In this document: piece by piece, positions 2,025 through 30,141 of the stretch
Layout: each line of letters opens with the position of its first letter
Position numbering within the stretch: the first letter of the stretch is position 1
Source of the DNA: an uncultured Sutterella sp.
Lineage (GTDB): Bacteria > Pseudomonadota > Gammaproteobacteria > Burkholderiales > Burkholderiaceae_F
Direction of reading: 5' to 3'
Assembly: GCA_900315045.1 (NCBI GenBank)
Contig: OMXR01000016.1
Coordinates: 1-34,806 of the forward strand
DNA length: 34,806 nucleotides
Translations under genes and position numbers: made by a program
The notes under the pieces: generated by a model
What the model saw: the letters and a program-made list of their open reading frames with translations, nothing else
The model's database searches: none
What the model was told of the DNA's origin: nothing

Positions 2025-3803
2025 TTAATTCTCCTCGGCAAGAACCATTTCCGTAAGCCCCTGTCCGGGACCGACCATCGGACGCACCGGCTCGTGCGGT
2101 TCAATCAGCACATCGACGAACACGAGCTTGTCCTTGTTCTTTTCATCGAAAGCAGTGGCAATCGCCTGATCGAGCTCCTCGTACGTGCGCACGCGCAGCC
2201 CGACATGCCCATAGGCCTGGGCAAGCATCACGAAGTCCGGCTGCACGTCCATCACGGACTCGGAGTAGCGGCCGCCGTAGTAGGCCTCCTGCCAGATGGC
2301 GACCATGCCCAGATATCCGTTGTTGAGCAGGAAGATCTTCGGCGCCAGCCCGTACTGCTTGCACGTGGCAAGCTCCTGAATGCACATCTGGATCGAACCG
2401 TCTCCGGTGAACAGCACCACGGGCTCGTCCGGATGCGCAACCGCGGCGCCCATGGCCGCGGGCAGGCCGTACCCCATCGTGCCGAGGCCGCCGCTCGTCA
2501 TCCAGTGTCTGGGCTGCTTGAGTTTCAGATACTGAGCCGCCCACATCTGATGCTCGCCGACGTCCGTGGCGTAGTAGGCATCGTTGTTCGTATAGCTGGC
2601 CACACGCTCGACAACGGCCTGCGGCTTGATCGCGCCGCCCTCGGGCGTGCTGTAGGCCAGCGAGCGCTTGGCCCGCCACTTCTCGATCTGCGCGATCCAC
2701 TTGCCAAGGGCCTCGGAGTCGCTGCGGGTCGAGGTTGCCTCAAGCTGCTCGACCATCTGGGAGAGCACGTCGCGCACGTCGCCCACGATGGGCACGTGCG
2801 TGGCCACGCACTTGCTGATCGAACTCGGATCCACGTCAACCTGAACCACCGTGCGGGGAAGCCCCTCGAAATCACGGGGATTGCCGATCACGCGATCGTC
2901 GAACCGGGCGCCCAGGGCAAGCACAACATCGCTGTTGTGCATTGCCATGTTGGCTTCATAGGTGCCGTGCATGCCGAGCATGCCAAGATTGAGCTTGCTG
3001 CCCGCATCCAGAGCGCCAAGCCCCATCAGGGTGCTCGCAACCGGGAAGCCGGTGAGTTCAACGAACCGTGCAAGCAGCTCGGCTGCCCGGGGATTGTTCA
3101 TGCCGCCGCCGATGTAGACGACGGGGCGCTTGGCCGTCAGCAGCACCTGCAACGCCCGCTTGATCTGCCCGGGATGCCCCTTCAGAACGGGCCGGTAGCC
3201 CGGAATGTCGCAAACCTCGGGATAAACGAAGGGGCACTTGGCGCACTGCACATCCTTGGGAATATCGATAAGGACAGGCCCCGGACGTCCGCTTCGGGCC
3301 AGATAGAAGGCCTTCTTGATGGTATCGGCAAGCTCGCGCACGTCGGTCACAAGGAAATTGTGCTTGACGCAGGGCCTTGTGATGCCGACGGTGTCCACTT
3401 CCTGGAACGCGTCAGTGCCGATCAGCTTGGTGCCGACCTGACCGGTGAAAATAACCAGCGGGATGGAGTCGGCATACGCGGTGGCGATGCCCGTCACGGC
3501 GTTCGTGGCGCCGGGGCCGGAGGTCACCAGAACGACGCCGACCTCGTCGGTCGTGCGCGCATAGGCATCGGCAGCATGCGCTGCAGCCTGCTCGTGGCGC
3601 ACCAGAATGTGCTTGAAGTACTTCTGCTTGTAAATCTCGTCGTAGATCGGCAGAACGGCTCCGCCCGGATAGCCGAAAACATACTTGACGCCTTCGGCGT
3701 GCAGCGCCTCGATCATGATCTGCGCCCCGCTCATCACGGGTGCGCTTTCAAGTCCCTGAGAGGTCATCAAACCTAATCCTCGCTCGAAATCAGTGTGTTG
3801 CAT
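2025..3803 (-). CDS. ilvB: Acetolactate synthase large (catalytic) subunit
   Basis: This ThDP-, FAD- and Mg2+-dependent enzyme condenses pyruvate with pyruvate or 2-ketobutyrate, the first committed step of branched-chain amino-acid synthesis. The N-terminal domain has EGVKYVFGYPGGAVLPIYDE and the catalytic-glutamate region RHEQAAAHAADAYAR. The C-terminal ThDP site is GDGSIQMCIQELAT ... LLNNGYLGMV. The start is ambiguous. The upstream ATG (3803, 592 aa) has an AGGAAA almost touching it. The ATG at 3767 (580 aa, MTSQGLESAPVMSGAQIM) has a GAGGATTAGG tract at normal spacing and gives a more usual N-terminus. It is the first gene of ilvBNC. No leader peptide rich in Leu, Val or Ile was found upstream, so classical attenuation is not evident. 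Confidence 0.96.
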   Translation of the reverse strand: MQHTDFERGLGLMTSQGLESAPVMSGAQIMIEALHAEGVKYVFGYPGGAVLPIYDEIYKQKYFKHILVRHEQAAAHAADAYARTTDEVGVVLVTSGPGATNAVTGIATAYADSIPLVIFTGQVGTKLIGTDAFQEVDTVGITRPCVKHNFLVTDVRELADTIKKAFYLARSGRPGPVLIDIPKDVQCAKCPFVYPEVCDIPGYRPVLKGHPGQIKRALQVLLTAKRPVVYIGGGMNNPRAAELLARFVELTGFPVASTLMGLGALDAGSKLNLGMLGMHGTYEANMAMHNSDVVLALGARFDDRVIGNPRDFEGLPRTVVQVDVDPSSISKCVATHVPIVGDVRDVLSQMVEQLEATSTRSDSEALGKWIAQIEKWRAKRSLAYSTPEGGAIKPQAVVERVASYTNNDAYYATDVGEHQMWAAQYLKLKQPRHWMTSGGLGTMGYGLPAAMGAAVAHPDEPVVLFTGDGSIQMCIQELATCKQYGLAPKIFLLNNGYLGMVAIWQEAYYGGRYSESVMDVQPDFVMLAQAYGHVGLRVRTYEELDQAIATAFDEKNKDKLVFVDVLIEPHEPVRPMVGPGQGLTEMVLAEEN

Positions 3804-4088
3804 TTTCCTAAATTCTTCGGCTCGGACTCTGATGAGGAAGCGGCAGAACGCCTTGTCAGAAGCTCGAGGCTGTCATGCTGCTCCTCAAGCTGGAGAAATC
3901 GTTCGCCGCCCCTAGACCCGGTAGAGCCCAGAAACCGAAAGAGTGCCGTGCGCCTTGGTCAGCCATTGGTTGGATTTTTTCACAGCACTTTTTTGATTTT
4001 AGCCAGATGCCGCTTTTTTTCTCACCGAACCGCGTTAAACCCATTTTTTTATCATTTCTTTGAATCATTTATTTGCGCATATCGATTT

Positions 4089-4118
4089 TTTATAGGCAGT
4101 TTTGCTGAGTCTATGCAA
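4089..4118 (-). promoter_or_regulatory. Candidate sigma70 promoter for ilvBNC
   Basis: On the minus strand there is a TTGCAT -35 element (4113-4118), an 18-nt spacer and a TATAAA -10 element (4089-4094). Transcription would start near 4082 and give a long leader of about 280 nt before ilvB. This is the best minus-strand match I found in the region, but it is a by-eye call. Confidence 0.35.
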
Positions 4119-4161
4119 GAATGTTCCGTTTGAGATGGATGGGCGCTTCGCAACTGAGGCA

Positions 4162-4201
4162 CGGAGTCGCTCCGATCCCTCTGCGCGGATTTGCTCCGCG
4201 C
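4162..4201 (+). repeat. Two tandem perfect hairpins in the NSS-1 leader
   Basis: CGGAG-TCG-CTCCG (4162-4174) is followed 8 nt later by GCGCGGA-TTTGC-TCCGCGC (4183-4201). Both stems are perfect. They lie 40 to 80 nt upstream of the start at 4242. Neither is followed by a T-run, so they are not terminators in either direction. They could be a structured 5' leader. Confidence 0.5.
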
Positions 4202-4241
4202 CGCGGCCTCTCCATCAAGCGTCTCAGGAAAGCAGTACCAC

Positions 4242-5576
4242 ATGTCTCACAGCAAAACGACCGAATGGGGCTCCCGAATCGGCTTCATTCTCGCGGGCGC
4301 AGGTTCGGCCATCGGATTAGGCGCAATCTGGAAATTCCCATTCTGGGCAGGCACCTACGGCGGCTCGGCCTTCATCATCCCGTACATCTTCTTCACGTTC
4401 ACGATCGGGGTGGCGCTTGTCATGGCGGAGCTTGCGATCGGACGCGCAGGCCGCGGCTCCGCCGTCTCGGCGATGAAGCGCCTCGGCGGTCCTGCGTTTG
4501 CAGTAATGGGCGGAATCGGCGTGCTCACGAGCTACATCATCCTGTCCTACTACTCGGTCGTGGGCGGCTGGTGCGTGAAGTATCTTTTCGATGCGCTCGG
4601 CGGCAATCTCGTCACGAGCGACCCGAAGCTGCTTGCAGACAACTTCGGAGCTCTTGTCGCCGACCCGGCCGCCAACATCAGCTGGCATCTGATCTTTCTC
4701 ACCCTTTCCTGCGGCGTCGTCGCCATGGGCGTTGTGGCAGGGATCGAGCGCATCAGCAAATACCTGCTGCCGATGCTGTTTGTGCTGATGCTGCTCATCA
4801 CCGGGCGCTCGCTTACCCTGGACGGGGCCATGCAGGGCATCGACTTCCTGTTCAACTTCAGCTTCAACAAGCTCACGCTCGAGTCCGTCATGAATGCCAT
4901 GGGACTCACCTTCTTCTCCCTGTCGCTGGGGTGCACGATTCTCGTGACATACGGCCTGTACCTGAAGGACTCGACCGACATTCCGTCTTCGGCAGGGTGG
5001 ATTTCGTACCTTGCCATTCAGACCGGAATCCTTGCCGGGCTGATGATCATGCCCGCCGTCTTCGCCATGGGGCAGGATCCCAAGGCGGGCCCCGGCCTTG
5101 TCTTCATCACGATCCCCCTGGTCTTCTCGCAGATTCCGTTCGGCGCCGCCTTTGCCGCGCTCTTTTACGTGTGCCTGCTCGTCGCCGCGCTCACGAGCGC
5201 CATTTCCCTTGTGGAAGTTGTTGTTGCCTACCTGTGCCACGAATGGCATCTGTCCCGCAAACGCGCTTCGCTTCTCATCTACATCACCATTTTCCTGCTC
5301 GGATCGGCCTCGGCCCTCTCTTTCGGCCCCTGGAGCGGCTGGACTGTCGGCGGCAAGATTCTCTTTGACCTGCTCGACTACGTCTGCACGAACATCATGA
5401 TGCCGGCGGGGGGCCTGGCCATCGCGATTCTGGCGGGCTGGATCGCAAGGGACAAGTTCCGCGCGCAGATCTCCCAGGTCAGAAAATATCCCGAGGGCGT
5501 GCTCAGATTCCTCACGTTCGCCGTCAGGTATCTGGCTCCAGTCATGGTTCTGCTGGTTCTCATCTCAGGCCTCTGA
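4242..5576 (+). CDS. NSS-family Na+-dependent amino-acid symporter (first copy)
   Basis: This 444-aa polytopic inner-membrane protein belongs to the neurotransmitter:sodium symporter (SNF) family, which drives amino-acid or related-solute uptake with Na+. The diagnostic first-helix motif GSAIGLGAIWKFPFWAGTYGGSAF forms the unwound TM1 of the Na+/substrate site. The repeat-2 motifs AMGLTFFSLSLGCTILVTYG and FYVCLLVAALTSAISLVEV are also present. The length corresponds to the bacterial 11-12 TM members of the YhdH/YocR type. I chose the ATG at 4242 because an AGGAAA lies 11 nt upstream and the paralogues at 13.4 and 14.8 kb start at the equivalent residue. It is a single-gene unit closed by a strong terminator. 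The substrate is unknown. Confidence 0.9.
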   Translation: MSHSKTTEWGSRIGFILAGAGSAIGLGAIWKFPFWAGTYGGSAFIIPYIFFTFTIGVALVMAELAIGRAGRGSAVSAMKRLGGPAFAVMGGIGVLTSYIILSYYSVVGGWCVKYLFDALGGNLVTSDPKLLADNFGALVADPAANISWHLIFLTLSCGVVAMGVVAGIERISKYLLPMLFVLMLLITGRSLTLDGAMQGIDFLFNFSFNKLTLESVMNAMGLTFFSLSLGCTILVTYGLYLKDSTDIPSSAGWISYLAIQTGILAGLMIMPAVFAMGQDPKAGPGLVFITIPLVFSQIPFGAAFAALFYVCLLVAALTSAISLVEVVVAYLCHEWHLSRKRASLLIYITIFLLGSASALSFGPWSGWTVGGKILFDLLDYVCTNIMMPAGGLAIAILAGWIARDKFRAQISQVRKYPEGVLRFLTFAVRYLAPVMVLLVLISGL

Positions 5577-5594
5577 CCGCCGTCCCGCAGAGAC

Positions 5595-5634
5595 CAATCG
5601 GGCCGCCCGAAACGAGCGGCCCGATTGATTTTTG
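5595..5634 (+). terminator. Strong Rho-independent terminator after NSS-1
   Basis: A 12-bp perfect stem CAATCGGGCCGC / GCGGCCCGATTG with a 9-nt loop (5607-5615) is followed by ATTTTT. It is located 18 nt after the symporter stop and faces the convergent mmuM gene. Confidence 0.9.
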
Positions 5635-5653
5635 TACGCTTTCTCTGACTCGG

Positions 5654-6589
5654 CTAGTACCCGAGCCGTCCTCTCATCTGCGCAACCTGGGCAATGTCTT
5701 CCGGCCCGGTGCGGCAGCAGCCGCCGATCAGCCTTGCGCCCGCCCGGTACCAGCTCTCGACATACTGCGCAAAGGATTCCGCTCCGCCCGACCAGGTCTT
5801 GGTGAGCGGATCGTATCGCTCGCCCCGATTCGGATACACGACGACGGGCTTGTCGCTGGCCATCCGGATCACGCCGATCAGCTCCTCGACAAACCGGGGA
5901 TCGGTGCAGTTCACGCCGATTGCCGCAACCTGGGGATTGCGCGAGAGCGCCTGAGCACAGTCGGCGATGTCATCCCCGCCGCAGGTCGTTCTGCCGTCAC
6001 GGCAGGAAAAACTCACCCAGGCGGGAATCTGCGGGAACTTTTCAAGCTCGAGCATGACGGCCACCGCCTCTTCCAGAAGCGGTATCGTCTCGACGGCAAA
6101 CAGATCCGGTGCCGCCTGCGCCAGAACACTGATCCGCTCCCGATGGAACTCCCTCAGTCCGTTCACGCCAAGCCGATACTCGCCCGTGTACTCGCTGCCG
6201 TCGGCAAGATACGCCCCGTAGGGACCGATCGAGGCTGCGGCAAGCGGCGAAGGCAGATTCTGCGACGAGCGCAGCGCAATGAATTCATTGCGAACCTCCT
6301 TGAGCAGCTCGACCGAGCGGGCGATGAGGCCTGCAGCCTCCTGAGGTGTGAGGCCCTTGCGCACAAACCCTTCGATCGTGGCCTGGTAGCTCGCTGACGT
6401 GCAAACGTCAGCACCGGCTGCGTAGTAGTCCCTGTGCACGGCCTTGACCAGATCGGGTGCATCAACGAGCGCTCTGGCCGACCAAAGGGCGTCGTTGGTG
6501 TCGAAGCCCCTGAGCGCAAGCTCGGAGCCGAACGCCCCGTCCAGCACCATGAAGGGCTGCACTGCAAGAATCTGTTCTACTGCGTTCAC
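5654..6589 (-). CDS. mmuM: Homocysteine S-methyltransferase
   Basis: This 311-aa zinc methyltransferase of the Pfam S-methyl_trans family transfers a methyl group from S-methylmethionine (or SAM) to homocysteine to make methionine. The N-terminal FMVLDGAFGSELALRG motif is typical. The zinc-binding cysteines appear as GVNCTDP and the C-terminal LIGGCCRTGPEDI. The start is a GTG at 6587-6589, chosen because a GGAGG Shine-Dalgarno lies 7 nt upstream. It follows a periplasmic amino-acid-binding gene by only 15 nt on the same strand, so the two are probably co-transcribed. No S-methylmethionine permease (mmuP) is in the window. Confidence 0.88.
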   Translation of the reverse strand: MNAVEQILAVQPFMVLDGAFGSELALRGFDTNDALWSARALVDAPDLVKAVHRDYYAAGADVCTSASYQATIEGFVRKGLTPQEAAGLIARSVELLKEVRNEFIALRSSQNLPSPLAAASIGPYGAYLADGSEYTGEYRLGVNGLREFHRERISVLAQAAPDLFAVETIPLLEEAVAVMLELEKFPQIPAWVSFSCRDGRTTCGGDDIADCAQALSRNPQVAAIGVNCTDPRFVEELIGVIRMASDKPVVVYPNRGERYDPLTKTWSGGAESFAQYVESWYRAGARLIGGCCRTGPEDIAQVAQMRGRLGY

Positions 6590-9554: not shown

Positions 9555-12500
9555 ATGCGCATTGAAAGTCTTCTCCTCACCAACATCAATTCCCTCAAGG
9601 GCACCTGGTTCATCGACTTCACCGACCCGCAGTATTGCGGCCTTTTCGCCATCACGGGGCCGACGGGCGCAGGCAAGTCCTCCATTCTCGACGCAATCGG
9701 CCTTTCGCTCTACGGCAAGACGCCGAGGCTTGAAAGCATCAACCAGAGCGGCAATGAGCTCATGACGCGCGGCACAGCCGAGTGCGAGGCGCAGACGACA
9801 TTCACCGCGGCAGGCGTGCGCTACCGGGCGAGCTGGAAGCAGCACCGTGCCATGCGCGGCAAGGCCAAGGGCGCCGCAGGCAAGCTTCAGTCCCAGACCG
9901 TGCGCCTTGAGCAGTATCTGCCGGCAGCTCCGGCGCAGGCCTGCTGGGACCCCGTTGCCACAAGCATCAATGAGTTCAACCGAAAGATCGTCGAGATCAC
10001 CGGGCTTACCTACGAGCAGTTCCGCCGCTCGGTGCTTCTTGCCCAGGGCGACTTTGCTGCATTTCTGAAGAGCGATGACGACAGCCGCGCACAGATTCTT
10101 GAGCAGATCACCGGCACGCATCTGTACACCGATATCTCGATGGAGGTTCAGCGGCTCTACAAAGATCAGGCCGACCTGGTCAAGCAGCTTGAGGATCGGG
10201 TGAATGTGCAGCCGCCGATGGAGGACGACACGCGCCGTGAGCTTGAGACCGCCGTCAAAATGCTCTCCGCCCGCAGCGCCGAAACAAAAGAGCTGCAGAC
10301 CCGTCTCTCTGAATTCATCTCCTGGCACAGGCAAATCGAGCTGCGCGAATCGGATGCGAAAAAGGCCTGTCAGACACTTGAATTCCTCGCCGCCGAGCAG
10401 CCGCGGATGCAGCTTCTCGACTCAAAAATCCAAGCAGCCGAAACGGCTGCCGCCCTGCAGCCCGCCTTCAGCAAGAGGCAGGATCTCAAGGCAAGAACCG
10501 AAAGGCAGTCCGAAGCCAGCGTCAGATCAGGCGAGGCGCTCAGCCAGGCGCAAAAGGCGCACGAAGCGGCCTGCTCGCGGCAAGCCGCCGCCCAGCGCCG
10601 GGCGGAAAACGAGATGCAGCGCCACGGCGCGCTGCTCGAGCTGCTCAAGCAGGTCCGCAGCCTTGACCGCGATGTCCGGGCGGCAGAGAACGTGTTTGCC
10701 GCCGCCCAGGACGAGGAGCGAAAAAGCGCTGCGCAGCTCGACTCAGCCCAGGCGGCGCTGCAGAGCACCCGCAAACTCTCCGCCAGCCATCTTGCTGAAA
10801 ACGAGGCCCTTGCCAAATGGCTCTCCGAGCACGCCGCCGACAGGACGCTTCTTGACCGGGGCGAAGAACTTGCTGACGCAAAGTCCCGACTGAGCGCCCA
10901 GATCAAAAGCGCTGAAGCCGCCAAAAAAGACGTCGAGCAAAAACGCAGCGCGCTCAAAAACCTCGAACTTGCACTCGCGCGCGCCCGGAGCGCACGCGAG
11001 CAGCACGATGCCCAGCGAACCAAGCTGCAAAGCGCCGTCCTCGCTGCGCAGGCCGTCCTCTCTTCGCTTCTCAACGGAAAGACGCTCGCCGAGCACGAAG
11101 CGCTCCGGGATGCCGCGCAGAAAAAACTCAGCCAGGCCACGCAGGCTGAGGAGACATTCCAGCGACTCAATCAGGCCCAGGCCAGAGCCAGCGAACTGCA
11201 CGCGCAGCACGGAATTCTCACCGAGCAGGTCGCCGGCGCAAAACGCCATGCCGAGGATCTGGCCAAGGTCGTTGAGGAGCTCGGCGCCCAAGAAGAGACG
11301 CTCCTCGCGCTGACACAGGTTCTGAACCTTGCCGATCGCCGCAAGGAGCTCAGAGACGGCGAACCCTGCCCGCTCTGCGGAGCTCTCGATCATCCCTTCT
11401 GCGTACAGCTGCCCGAAGGAACGGAAAATGCCGACAGCCGCTTGCGCGAAAAACGGCGCGCATTGCAGCGGCACCGCAAGGAAATGTCCCTCTCAGAGCA
11501 GGATCTTTCTGAAAAATCCGGGCGGCTTGACGAGCTTGGAAAATCCCTGAAGCAGGCCGATCAGGAGGCAAAGAGCCTGGGTGAGGCGCTTCGGTCCTGC
11601 CTAGGCGCACTGCACCTCACCTCGCCAGGCGAACTCGCTTCCCTGCAAACGGACTTGAACAGACAGCTCGGAGCGATCACGGAGACACTGCGAAACGCCT
11701 CCAGGGCCGAGGAAGACCTGAACAAAAAGAGGCTCTCAGAGCAAAAGCTCTCCGAACAGGGTGCTGCGGTTCTGCAGCAGGAGGCGGCGGCTTCAGCGAG
11801 CGCGCAGGCTGCCGGCACCGCCCTTGAGAGCGCCCTTGCCGCAGAGTCATCGGCACTTCAGGAATCGGACCGGCTGAACTCTGAACTCAAGTCCGCTTTT
11901 GCTTCGTATTTTTCCGAGATGCCCGAGCCGCTCGCCGCGCTTGGCGAACTTCTCGAGCGCCGCAGGCTTTTCGAGAATCAGGATCGGCTCCGGAGCGAAC
12001 AAGCGCACCAGCTCGCCCAGCTGCAGGCCAGACAGTCCGAGCAGGAGCAAGCGCTCAAGCTTGCTCAGGGAGCGCATGACGAGGCGCTCGGCAAGCTCGG
12101 CAGCGCGCGCGAAGAGCTCGGCGCTCTGGCTGCAAAAAGAAAATCGCTTTTCTCTGAGAAAAACCCAGACGCCGAGGAAAAAGCCTCAAAGGCAACCCTT
12201 GACCTTGCCGTTGCCGAGCGAGAAGAGGCTGACAGACAAGCAGCGAACATGCGCGCCGAACTCGCCTCGCGTCAATCCGCAGCCCTTCAGGACAAAAGCC
12301 GCCTGCAGGAACTCTCCGCCGAACTCTCCGCAAGCGAGGGCGCATGGGCTGCTGCCCTTGCAGCTTCCCCATTTGCCGATGAATCGGGCTGGCGCATGCA
12401 TCTGCTGCCCGAAGAAGAGCTCAGGCAAGCCCGCACCGCCCTGCACAATCACCGCGTTGCCGAGCAGAGCGCTCTTGAACAGAAGAAAACGGCTGAGAGC

Positions 12501-14788: not shown

Positions 14789-16108
14789 ATGAACTCTCGC
14801 AGCACTTGGGCAAGCCAGATCGGCTTCATCCTCTCAAGCGTCGGCGCAGCCGTCGGCCTCGGGGCCATTTGGAAATTCCCCTATCTTGCCGGCAGCAATG
14901 GCGGCAGCGCATTCTTCTTTCCCTACCTGATCCTCACCTTCACGGTGGGACTTGTTCTGCTCATCGCGGAAATCACCGCGGGACGCCTTGGCGCCGGGTC
15001 GGTCGTCACCGGATACCGCTCGCTTGGCGGCAAGGGATTCGTTCCCTGGGCCTACCTCGGCATTCTCACCGGCTACGGCGTGATGTGCTTTTACTCGGCC
15101 GTGGGCGGCTGGACGATCGCGTACCTCATTGACGCACTGCTCGGCAATGGCATCGTCGCCGACAAGGCAGCTCTCGGTGCGCACTTCGGCTCGCTCGTCG
15201 CCGACCCGGTGAAGGCGATCGGATTTCAGGCTCTGTTCCTTGTTCTGACTGCGCTCATCGTCAACCGCGAAGTGAGCCGCGGCATCGAACTGCTCAACAA
15301 GATCATGCTCCCCATCTTCATGGGACTGATGGTGGTGATCATCATCCGCGGCGTCACGCTGCCCGGTGCTGAAAAGGGTCTGGAATATCTCTTTAGCTGG
15401 CATCCCGAAGCCTTCAGCTGGAGCAGCCTTCTTGCCGCCATGGGCTTCATGTTCTTCAGCCTGTGCGTGGGCTGCGGGTGCATGTTCACCTACGGCTCAT
15501 ACCTTGACCACCGCGCCCACATCGTAAACAACTGCACCTGGGTGATGATCCTCTCGGTCATCTCCTCGGTCCTGGGCGGCCTCATGATCATGCCGGCCGT
15601 GTTCGCCTTCGGTCTTGACCCGGCGGGCGGCCCCGATCTCACCTTCATGACGATGCCGATCGTGTTTTCGCAGATCCCGTTCGGCGGGCTCTTCGCCTCG
15701 CTCTTTTACCTGTGCCTCGTGCTCGCGGCCCTCACGAGCGCCGTGTCGCTTCTGGAGATCCCGGTGGCCTACTGCGTGGATGAGCTCAAGATGAACCGCG
15801 TGGTGAGCACCGTGGTTGTCACGGGCTCGCTCATGGTGATCGGAAGCCTGTGCGCCCTGTCCTTCGGAACGCTCGCAGACGTGAAAATCTGCGGCCGCAC
15901 GTTCTTTGACAACTTCGACTTTCTCACGAGCAACCTCGGGCTGCCGATCGGCGGACTTATCCTTTGCCTGCTGACGGGCGTGACCGTCTGGCCGAAGATT
16001 CAGAGCGCGACTGGGCTCAAGGGTTCGCTTGCCGGAGCCTTCCGCTTCATCCTGACGATCGTGAGCCCGATCGTGATTCTGACGGTGCTCGTCACGGGGC
16101 TCATTTAG
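14789..16108 (+). CDS. NSS-family Na+-dependent symporter (tandem copy B)
   Basis: This 439-aa protein is the same length as copy A and close to it over the whole alignment. Identical blocks include STWASQIGFILSSVGAAVG, FSWHPEAF, GGLMIMPAVFAFGLDPAGG and TFFDNFDFLTSNLG. Differences cluster in TM3, the second loop (GAGSVVTGYRSLGGKGF against GAGISTVPGFRRLGGMKY) and the extreme C-terminus. Third-codon positions differ often, so the duplication is not recent. The ATG is preceded by an 8-T tract and no Shine-Dalgarno. No terminator is visible between its stop and the tRNA promoter. Divergent substrate preference after duplication is inference. Confidence 0.9.
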   Translation: MNSRSTWASQIGFILSSVGAAVGLGAIWKFPYLAGSNGGSAFFFPYLILTFTVGLVLLIAEITAGRLGAGSVVTGYRSLGGKGFVPWAYLGILTGYGVMCFYSAVGGWTIAYLIDALLGNGIVADKAALGAHFGSLVADPVKAIGFQALFLVLTALIVNREVSRGIELLNKIMLPIFMGLMVVIIIRGVTLPGAEKGLEYLFSWHPEAFSWSSLLAAMGFMFFSLCVGCGCMFTYGSYLDHRAHIVNNCTWVMILSVISSVLGGLMIMPAVFAFGLDPAGGPDLTFMTMPIVFSQIPFGGLFASLFYLCLVLAALTSAVSLLEIPVAYCVDELKMNRVVSTVVVTGSLMVIGSLCALSFGTLADVKICGRTFFDNFDFLTSNLGLPIGGLILCLLTGVTVWPKIQSATGLKGSLAGAFRFILTIVSPIVILTVLVTGLI

Positions 16109-16111
16109 GGC

Positions 16112-16140
16112 TTGCATTTCCCGGAAGACACGTATAAAAT
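16112..16140 (+). promoter_or_regulatory. Promoter of tRNA-Arg
   Basis: TTGCAT (16112-16117), a 17-nt spacer and TAAAAT (16135-16140) lie 30 nt before the mature tRNA 5' end, good sigma70-type spacing for a stable-RNA gene. Confidence 0.6.
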
Positions 16141-16170
16141 GCACGTCCTACCGGTAAACGGTACCAGCGT

Positions 16171-16247
16171 GCGCCAGTAGCTCAGTTGGATAGAGTACCT
16201 GGCTACGAACCAGGGGGTCGCGGGTTCGAATCCTACCTGGCGCACCA
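16171..16247 (+). tRNA. tRNA-Arg (anticodon ACG)
   Basis: This 77-nt tRNA folds fully. The acceptor stem GCGCCAG / CTGGCGC has discriminator A and an encoded CCA. The D-arm begins AGCTCAGTTGGA. The anticodon stem CCTGG / CCAGG encloses the loop CTACGAA, giving anticodon ACG, which is read as ICG after deamination and decodes CGU/CGC/CGA. The T-loop is GGTTCGAATCC. A promoter precedes it and a terminator follows 6 nt after the CCA. Confidence 0.97.
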
Positions 16248-16252
16248 ATGAC

Positions 16253-16292
16253 AACCCCGATCGCTTTTAAAGGCGGTCGGGGTTTCCTTTTG
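16253..16292 (+). terminator. Terminator of tRNA-Arg
   Basis: AACCCCGA (16253-16260) pairs with TCGGGGTT (16277-16284), extended by an inner CGC / GCG, and is followed by TCCTTTTG. Confidence 0.8.
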
Positions 16293-27687: not shown

Positions 27688-29088
27688 TCAGGCGATCTTG
27701 GAATAGCCGCCTGCGCGGTCCGATTCCCTCAGGTATCGGTCGAACTGCATCGCCACGGCGCGCACGAAGATCTTGCCCTTGGCGCTAGCTCATGCTTCTG
27801 GTATGCCTGCAACTTGCGCAGTTCATAGGCGAACGTCTCATCAAAATTGATGTCGAACTCCTCTTCGATCTCCTTCTTGACGATCTCGAAGCGGCACATC
27901 ACGGTCATGATGACCGCTCGGCGCAGCTTGTCCTCCTCGGAGAGCTTGAATCCGCGGCATGTGGCAAGATGCCCCGCCCGGATCGCTTCGTAGTACGGAT
28001 CGATCTCACGCGGATTGCACGCGTAGGTGCCGTCGACAAAGGAGATGGAACTCGCGCCAAGAGCCACCATGTCGCATTCTGCACGGGTCGAATAGCCCTG
28101 GAAGTTCCTCTGGATCGTGCCGTTGACCTGAGCAATTGAAAGCTCATCGGTTTCCTTGGCAAAGTGATCCATGCCGATGTACCGGTAGCCGTTTTCGGTG
28201 AGGCGCCGGATCGAGTCGAACATGATGTGCACTTTTTCCTCGGTAGTCGAACATGATGTGCACTTTTTCCTCGGTACCGGGCAGATCGGCGGGCAGAATC
28301 CTCCTCTGCGGCTTGAAGTGGTTGGGCAGGTGCGCATAGTGATAAAGCGCAATGCGGTCGGGCGAAAGCTCGATCACCCTGTCGATCGTCTGGGCAAAGG
28401 ATTCGCGGGTCTGCTTGGGAAGGCCGTAGATGAGATCCATGTTGATCGAGTGAAAGCCGTTGTCCCTGGCCTGGCTCATGAGGTCGCGGGTCATCTCGAA
28501 GGGCTGGATGCGGTTCACGGCCTTCTGCACGTCGGGATTAAAGTCCTGCACGCCGATGCTCATGCGGTTGAAGCCGCTCTCTCTGAGCGCCTTCACCTTG
28601 TCCTCGGGGCACGTTCTGGGATCCACTTCGATGGATATCTCGCTGCCCGGGGCAAACGGAAACCGGGCGCGCAGCTCGCTCATGAGAAACAGAATCTCGT
28701 CGTTGGTGAGGAATGTCGGAGTGCCGCCACCCCAGTGCAACTGCTCAAGCTCGCCAGAACCCGTGAGCTTGCTCTTTACAAGGTCGGCCTCTTCGAGCAG
28801 CACCTTCATGTACTCGGCCGAGCGCTCGTGGTCGCGCGTGACAACCTTGTTGCACCCGCAGTAAAAGCAGACGTCGCTGCAAAACGGAATGTGGCAGTAC
28901 AGCGACAGTCCAGCTGGCTTTTTTGAAGCGCCCCGTGCCTGAAGAGCCTGCTCATAGTCTTCAGGCTTGAAATCATTCTTGAAACGGTCAGCTGTGGGAT
29001 ACGAGGTATAGCGCGGAGCGGGTACATCAAACTTGCGCAACAGTTCCCGATCAGGCAGTTCGACGCCGCTCGTAGCAGATGTAGACAT
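27688..29088 (-). pseudogene. hemN: Oxygen-independent coproporphyrinogen III oxidase, doubly disrupted
   Basis: The N-terminal ~290 residues (from the ATG at 29088) are a normal radical-SAM HemN, with YTSYPTADRF, the FeS ligand cluster CSDVCFYCGC, LHWGGGTPTFL and YHYAHLPNHFKPQRRI. After EEKVHIMFD a 31-bp tandem duplication (28214-28276) shifts the frame and this frame stops at 28144. The continuing sequence (SIRRLTENGYRYIGMDHFAKE ... FAYELRKLQAYQKHEL) is in another frame and stops at 27729. A second lesion near 27781-27791 skips about 12 codons expected between KHEL and GKIFVRAVAMQFDRYL, which returns to the first frame and stops at 27688-27690. Intact HemN makes protoporphyrinogen anaerobically. 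Assembly error is the alternative to a true pseudogene. Confidence 0.85.
28214..28276. repeat. 31-bp tandem duplication inside hemN
   Basis: Two exact, directly adjacent 31-bp copies (28215-28245 and 28246-28276; periodicity begins at 28214). Since 31 is not a multiple of 3, the downstream frame is shifted. Each copy encodes the EEKVHIMFD segment in its own frame. Confidence 0.95.
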
Positions 29089-29131: not shown

Positions 29132-29171
29132 ATTATCAGCCAAAAATTTCGGTTCCATTGACATATATCAA
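29132..29171 (-). promoter_or_regulatory. FNR box and -10 element upstream of hemN
   Basis: TTGAC-ATAT-ATCAA (29158-29171) matches the FNR consensus TTGAT-N4-ATCAA with one mismatch. On the minus strand a GATAAT -10 (29132-29137) follows. The box centre is about 40 nt before the expected start of transcription, the class II activator position. The fnr gene itself begins 175 bp away on the other strand. Confidence 0.7.
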
Positions 29172-29346: not shown

Positions 29347-30141
29347 ATGCTAAACAACCCCAATTTGAACATGTCGACCCTGCGCGTTGCCTGCTCCAAC
29401 TGCAATTTGCGCGAACTGTGCTTGCCCGTTGGTCTGAATCTGAAGGAAATCGAACGGCTTGAAGAGCTTGTTTCAACCAGAAAGCGCGTCCGCCGCGGCG
29501 AGGCGCTTTACCGGGCCGGAGACAAGTTTGAGGCGCTTTACGCCATTCGCCTCGGTTTTCTGAAAAGCGCCGTGATGAGCAGCGACGGCCGCGAGCAGGT
29601 CACGAGCTTTCACATGTCGGGCGATGTTGTCGGACTGGACGGACTGGCTAGCATGGTCTACTCGAGCGACCTGATTGCGCTTGAGGACACCGAAGTGTGC
29701 ATTCTGCACTACGACCGGCTCGAAGAAGCCTCCCAGCAGATCCCCGCGCTCGGCACGCACTTCCAGCGGCTGCTGTCCCGGGAGATCGTCCGTCAGAACG
29801 GCGTCATGCTGCTTCTGGGCTCCATGCACGCCGAGGAGCGCCTTGCCGCGTTCATCCTCAATCTCTCGCAGCGCTTTGAGCAAAGGGGCTATTCAAGGAG
29901 CGAGTTCGTGCTGCGCATGACGCGCGCCGAAATCGGTTCCTACCTGGGCCTGAAGCTTGAGACGGTGAGCCGCGTCCTGTCGCGCTTCTCCCACGACAAT
30001 CTGCTCATCGCCAACCAGAAGCACGTGCAGATCATGGACTTCGAGGGCCTGCGCAACATTGTGAGCGGCCAGGCTTTTGCCCAGCCCCACAAGACGATTC
30101 CTCTCAAGAAAGCCGCCACGAGCATCAAGGATCTCGTTTAG
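29347..30141 (+). CDS. fnr: FNR-type anaerobic transcriptional regulator
   Basis: This 264-aa CRP/FNR protein senses oxygen through a 4Fe-4S cluster. The four ligand cysteines are all present at C16, C19, C25 (ACSNCNLRELC) and C118 (TEVCILHY), each offset by four from E. coli FNR. The cyclic-nucleotide-type beta roll is central, and the C-terminal HTH has the recognition helix ETVSR (E205, S208, R209), matching the residues that read TTGAT. The Shine-Dalgarno is weak, and an in-frame ATG at 29371 would remove eight residues but keep the cysteines. It is divergent from hemN, a classical target, and overlaps the MATE gene by 1 nt. Confidence 0.93.
   Translation: MLNNPNLNMSTLRVACSNCNLRELCLPVGLNLKEIERLEELVSTRKRVRRGEALYRAGDKFEALYAIRLGFLKSAVMSSDGREQVTSFHMSGDVVGLDGLASMVYSSDLIALEDTEVCILHYDRLEEASQQIPALGTHFQRLLSREIVRQNGVMLLLGSMHAEERLAAFILNLSQRFEQRGYSRSEFVLRMTRAEIGSYLGLKLETVSRVLSRFSHDNLLIANQKHVQIMDFEGLRNIVSGQAFAQPHKTIPLKKAATSIKDLV

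Follow-up and report, generated by a model that had tools for sequence, protein, structure and literature searches.

The window, that is, the whole stretch of DNA analyzed here, is all of contig C64 (34,806 bases) from a draft assembly of 161 contigs and 2,189,629 bases that is 96.06% complete with 2.84% contamination. It carries hemN, whose frame is interrupted in the sequence as written, together with the following parts and upstream elements.

27688..29088, minus strand: hemN, oxygen-independent coproporphyrinogen III oxidase; frame interrupted as written; both pieces match TIGR00538
28276..29088, minus strand: N-terminal part in the first frame, with the radical-SAM core (PF04055)
28214..28276, no strand: 31-bp perfect tandem duplication (+31), from Tandem Repeats Finder and DNA alignment
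27787..28244, minus strand: middle piece of about 458 bp, uninterrupted in its shifted frame and conserved, with 79-87% identity to eight congeners
27786..27787, no strand: junction lacking exactly 31 bp that nine aligned relatives carry, from DNA alignment
27688..27786, minus strand: C-terminal part, again in the first frame (96.9% identity over 32 aa to HemN of L123 from congener G007)
29158..29171, no strand: FNR-box-like site TTGACATATATCAA upstream of hemN, from sequence likeness
29347..30141, plus strand: putative FNR/CRP-type regulator, 264 aa, open frame, named by sight

The tandem duplication described in the original prediction was recovered by Tandem Repeats Finder (period 31, 100% matches, 2.0 copies) as the only array in the window. 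Alignment of the DNA with nine relatives, a check that the prediction had asked for, gave an insertion and a deletion in hemN of exactly 31 columns each, in agreement with its expectation of two lesions and a deletion close to 31 bp; the "about 12 codons" it had counted as missing slightly overstate the deletion, 31 bp being little over 10 codons. The deletion junction lies near 27786/27787, and the piece of hemN between the lesions measures about 458 bp. As predicted, the N- and C-terminal parts are read in one frame and the middle in another, and the locus has the length of an intact gene (1401 bp or 467 codons including the stop, the L123 counterpart having 466 aa). In place of a single continuous frame of about 450-470 codons there are two frame changes, +31 and -31, and the product as written stops after 314 aa, at 28144. 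The predicted identity of the gene also stands: against TIGR00538, the N-terminal piece alone scored 345 bits, exceeding the cut-off of 324.95, and the middle piece 163.7 bits. The HemN_C domain (PF06969) is incomplete, a single frame matching only its positions 1-47 of 67.

Within the duplication, the run at period 31 extends over 32 bases, which amounts to only 1 base of extra homology. The repeat unit has no other occurrence in the genome at up to 2 mismatches, the sampled half of the genome contains no further perfect duplication of 31 bp, and the middle piece had no match among the viral contigs scanned. For CTAG, which occurs at the deletion junction, 307 copies were counted against 537 expected, a difference too weak to use. 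An FNR box near hemN had been predicted, and the site upstream of the gene fits what we take to be the consensus of an FNR-like box; the pattern TTGA-N6-TCAA, read by eye, also precedes hemN in the nine aligned relatives.

The middle piece was matched in 34 of 41 genomes, the source genome included. Eight of nine congeners carry hemN as one open frame each (469-510 codons), and the middle piece has no counterpart in the ninth, which is 84% complete. In all three parts of the gene, third codon positions account for most of the differences from five relatives; relative to L054, the counts at positions 1/2/3 are 59/40/131 in the N-terminal part, 14/13/63 in the middle, and 2/0/14 in the C-terminal part. 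Judging from these substitutions, each part remains constrained in the frame proper to it and shows no sign of decay, and the lesions would therefore be either very recent or not real. The third-position excess against five relatives gave no indication of the relaxed selection or further decay that a pseudogene could show.

The prediction had proposed a search for hemF and other hemN-like genes. No match to hemF (PF01218) was found in the source genome and nine congeners (0 of 10), and it was present in 12 of the 25 genomes of the whole hemF search; ferrochelatase was found in all seven genus members searched. The source genome encodes HemW on C36 (TIGR00539, 321.8 bits, cut-off 205.4) and an intact NF006385 "coproporphyrinogen III oxidase family protein" of 445 residues on C113 (L074, 1969-3303; 606.4 bits, cut-off 355). 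The latter could in principle replace HemN, so that a real break in hemN might be tolerated and the break alone would be no proof of haem loss.

We sampled approximately half of the genome (80 pieces, 1,077,582 unmasked bases, with one 10-kb overlap counted twice). Eleven short pieces were masked throughout and lay outside the scan: the short contigs C1, C2, C10, C54, C61, C66, C67, C74, and C83 and, judging by base totals, C98 and C107. In the ∼1.08 Mb sampled, perfect tandem duplications of period 12-400 gave 14 rows, some of them overlapping, and 11 of these rows have periods divisible by three. Among them, C93 (L104) holds perfect repeats of 63, 24, and 48 bp at 12348 and 16098-16254, all multiples of three, which are likely repetitive protein frames. 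The duplications whose length is not a multiple of three are the 31 bp in hemN, 23 bp on C119, and 59 bp on C114; smaller samples of relatives (207,392, 60,000, and 126,042 bases) contained no such duplications. Irregularities outside the window were as follows.

C119 (L175), 10451-10497: 23-bp perfect tandem duplication that breaks a Na+/H+ antiporter gene (PF03553)
C114 (L170), from 278: 59-bp perfect tandem duplication, out of frame, near the contig end, in a frame of no assigned product
C65 (L069), about 3235-6222: frame changes in aminopeptidase-like and periplasmic adaptor genes, names by sight
C111 (L076), 470-477: run of 8 N inside a coding frame, with flanks that suggest far more than 8 bases missing
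C103 (L163), 779-782: 4 consecutive N within a small coding frame

About 1.02 kb from the 23-bp duplication on C119, lptF (PF03739) lacks 53 bp relative to its counterparts and changes frame, a comparison that uses 5 informative relatives, with L179, L181, and L184 set aside. On C65, the aminopeptidase-like gene is missing ∼47 bp, and the frame of the neighboring periplasmic adaptor gene changes about 0.69 kb further on; this second change was initially read as +13, and inspection gave approximately -17 at the break, the remainder reflecting unequal N-terminal lengths. On C53, one gene shifts frame by a single base. The interrupted frame on C111 looks like lumazine synthase, and that on C103 is presumably helix-turn-helix-like. 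Both runs of N within genes suggest scaffold joins, though N can also be masking.

Frame changes were then counted by a uniform test, in which 465 query frames from three congeners passed a codon-composition filter and were compared with the source genome and with the congeners mutually, covering about half of the source genome and smaller parts of the congeners. In the source genome, seven frame changes were counted, affecting 6 of the 105 genes matched (37,332 aa). The congener controls, which are different genomes with overlapping gene families, showed none in 31 (G007 and G005) and none in 36 (G008), thus 0 of 67 gene copies over 27,455 aa together. If broken genes fell at random over the 172 gene copies, the chance that all six would lie in the source genome is 0.049, and the same contrast by aligned length, with seven changes, gives 0.021. 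The excess in the source genome over its congeners is real but modest. An assembly error would be expected to leave out-of-frame lesions in unrelated genes as well, and the same assembly does contain them. Six of the seven frame changes form three pairs with spacings of 0.46, 0.69, and 1.02 kb; in a simulation of random placement over the aligned length, three such pairs had a probability of 0.0007, in a test that was chosen post hoc. Misjoining of short contigs at both ends would be expected to produce such close pairs.

Other versions of the scan were also run. A looser one matched 134 queries and returned 22 rows, of which 14 were hemN found via several relatives, and its controls gave one frame change in 28 and none in 42 matched queries. 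On inspection, antisense query frames appeared to underlie L207_553, L207_94, and L202_16678, the control hit on L124; these were removed by the codon-composition filter, as was L196_4053. At 55% identity, 40 queries matched in the source genome with two frame changes (one of them L207_94), and 19 matched in the controls with none. The reverse scan, with the source genome's own frames against the congeners, gave three frame changes in 103 matched places: hemN, L094 (offset 176), and L161 (offset 34).

We conclude that the +31/-31 pair in hemN is very probably a local assembly error in a scaffolded draft and not a real feature, and that the living cell most likely carries an intact hemN. We infer that the lesions were introduced by scaffolding or gap closing. 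Overlapping neighbors concatenated unmerged would leave a tandem duplication of the overlap, and neighbors across a small true gap, joined directly, would leave a deletion. At hemN, a stretch of ∼458 bp may have been joined between two longer contigs with a 31-bp offset: at one end, the 31-bp overlap with its neighbor would be retained twice, giving the tandem duplication, and at the other end 31 bp would be dropped, giving the deletion. A single piece offset by 31 bp would yield both changes together and keep the total length, and the original argument that matching sizes speak against an error is therefore not supported. That one displaced piece, and not two independent joins, lies behind the equal sizes has in our judgment about an even chance, because no other lesion pair that we found is equal-sized. 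The other pairs are unequal, +23/-53 in one case and about -47/about -17 in the other. Equal pairing had been considered as a general signature, under which the 23-bp duplication on C119 should have come with a 23-bp deletion in lptF; the deletion found there, of 53 bp, led us to reject it. The broad verdict of assembly error is independent of the single-offset detail.

The sequence as written does show both lesions, and they could be taken as those of a real and very recent pseudogene, in which hemN was first disrupted by the 31-bp duplication and afterwards lost 31 bp, a deletion that re-framed the last 32 codons without restoring the protein. No match to hemF was found, but the intact NF006385 paralogue on C113 might permit the loss of hemN. 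We nevertheless consider a pseudogene very unlikely: correcting the frame of the last codons alone is of no use as long as ∼150 residues are misread, two lesions of equal size are not expected, hemN shows no decay, ferrochelatase is retained, and an out-of-frame lesion also affects lptF, a usually essential gene, in the same assembly. It is similarly improbable that this gut bacterium has just lost HemN, has kept ferrochelatase and the FNR-like box, and uses haem from its host or neighbors or the NF006385 paralogue. The loss of anaerobic haem synthesis raised by the original prediction is not supported, and it is the less likely reading because the draft contains out-of-frame indels in unrelated genes, lptF included, and the tested parts of the congeners contain none.

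The draft might instead merge alleles of co-existing strains, some of them with real indels. Many of the nearest genomes are metagenome assemblies, and a mixed sample would be compatible with 161 contigs and 2.84% contamination, but indels that mostly span tens of bases, shift the frame, and lie in conserved genes would be unlike ordinary strain differences, and we regard a strain mixture as extremely unlikely. Programmed frameshifting or translational bypass that fuses the three parts into one HemN would account for the common frame of the N- and C-terminal parts and for the preserved total length. This is exceedingly unlikely in our view: eight congeners have a plain continuous hemN frame, and recoding could not restore HemN because the DNA itself lacks 31 bp of the conserved C-terminal region.

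Recognizing the lesions as a probable assembly error averts a false report of haem auxotrophy, and gene losses inferred from the GCA_900315045.1 draft need checking. Equal and opposite indels a few hundred bases apart mimic compensation, and one misplaced stretch can produce them.

Among known proteins, the interrupted gene belongs with HemN (TIGR00538), which both pieces match and with which the FNR-like box upstream agrees; it differs by the two frame interruptions as written. HemW (TIGR00539, C36) and the NF006385 family protein (C113) are HemN-like radical-SAM proteins of the same genome, but they are separate intact genes that score below the TIGR00538 cut-off (97.3 and 92.5 bits versus 324.95). 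As for the lesions, the literature search returned, among the matches listed, no title or abstract opening that describes an error pattern of the hemN type. The closest comparison is with the scaffolding and gap-closing errors of short-read drafts. The excerpted text of PMC5368935 treats overlapping contigs as negative gaps, presents scaffolding as a combination of gap filling with the concatenation of contigs that overlap, and reports one program that puts gaps within overlapping contigs. An equal +31/-31 pair is absent from the description in that excerpt.
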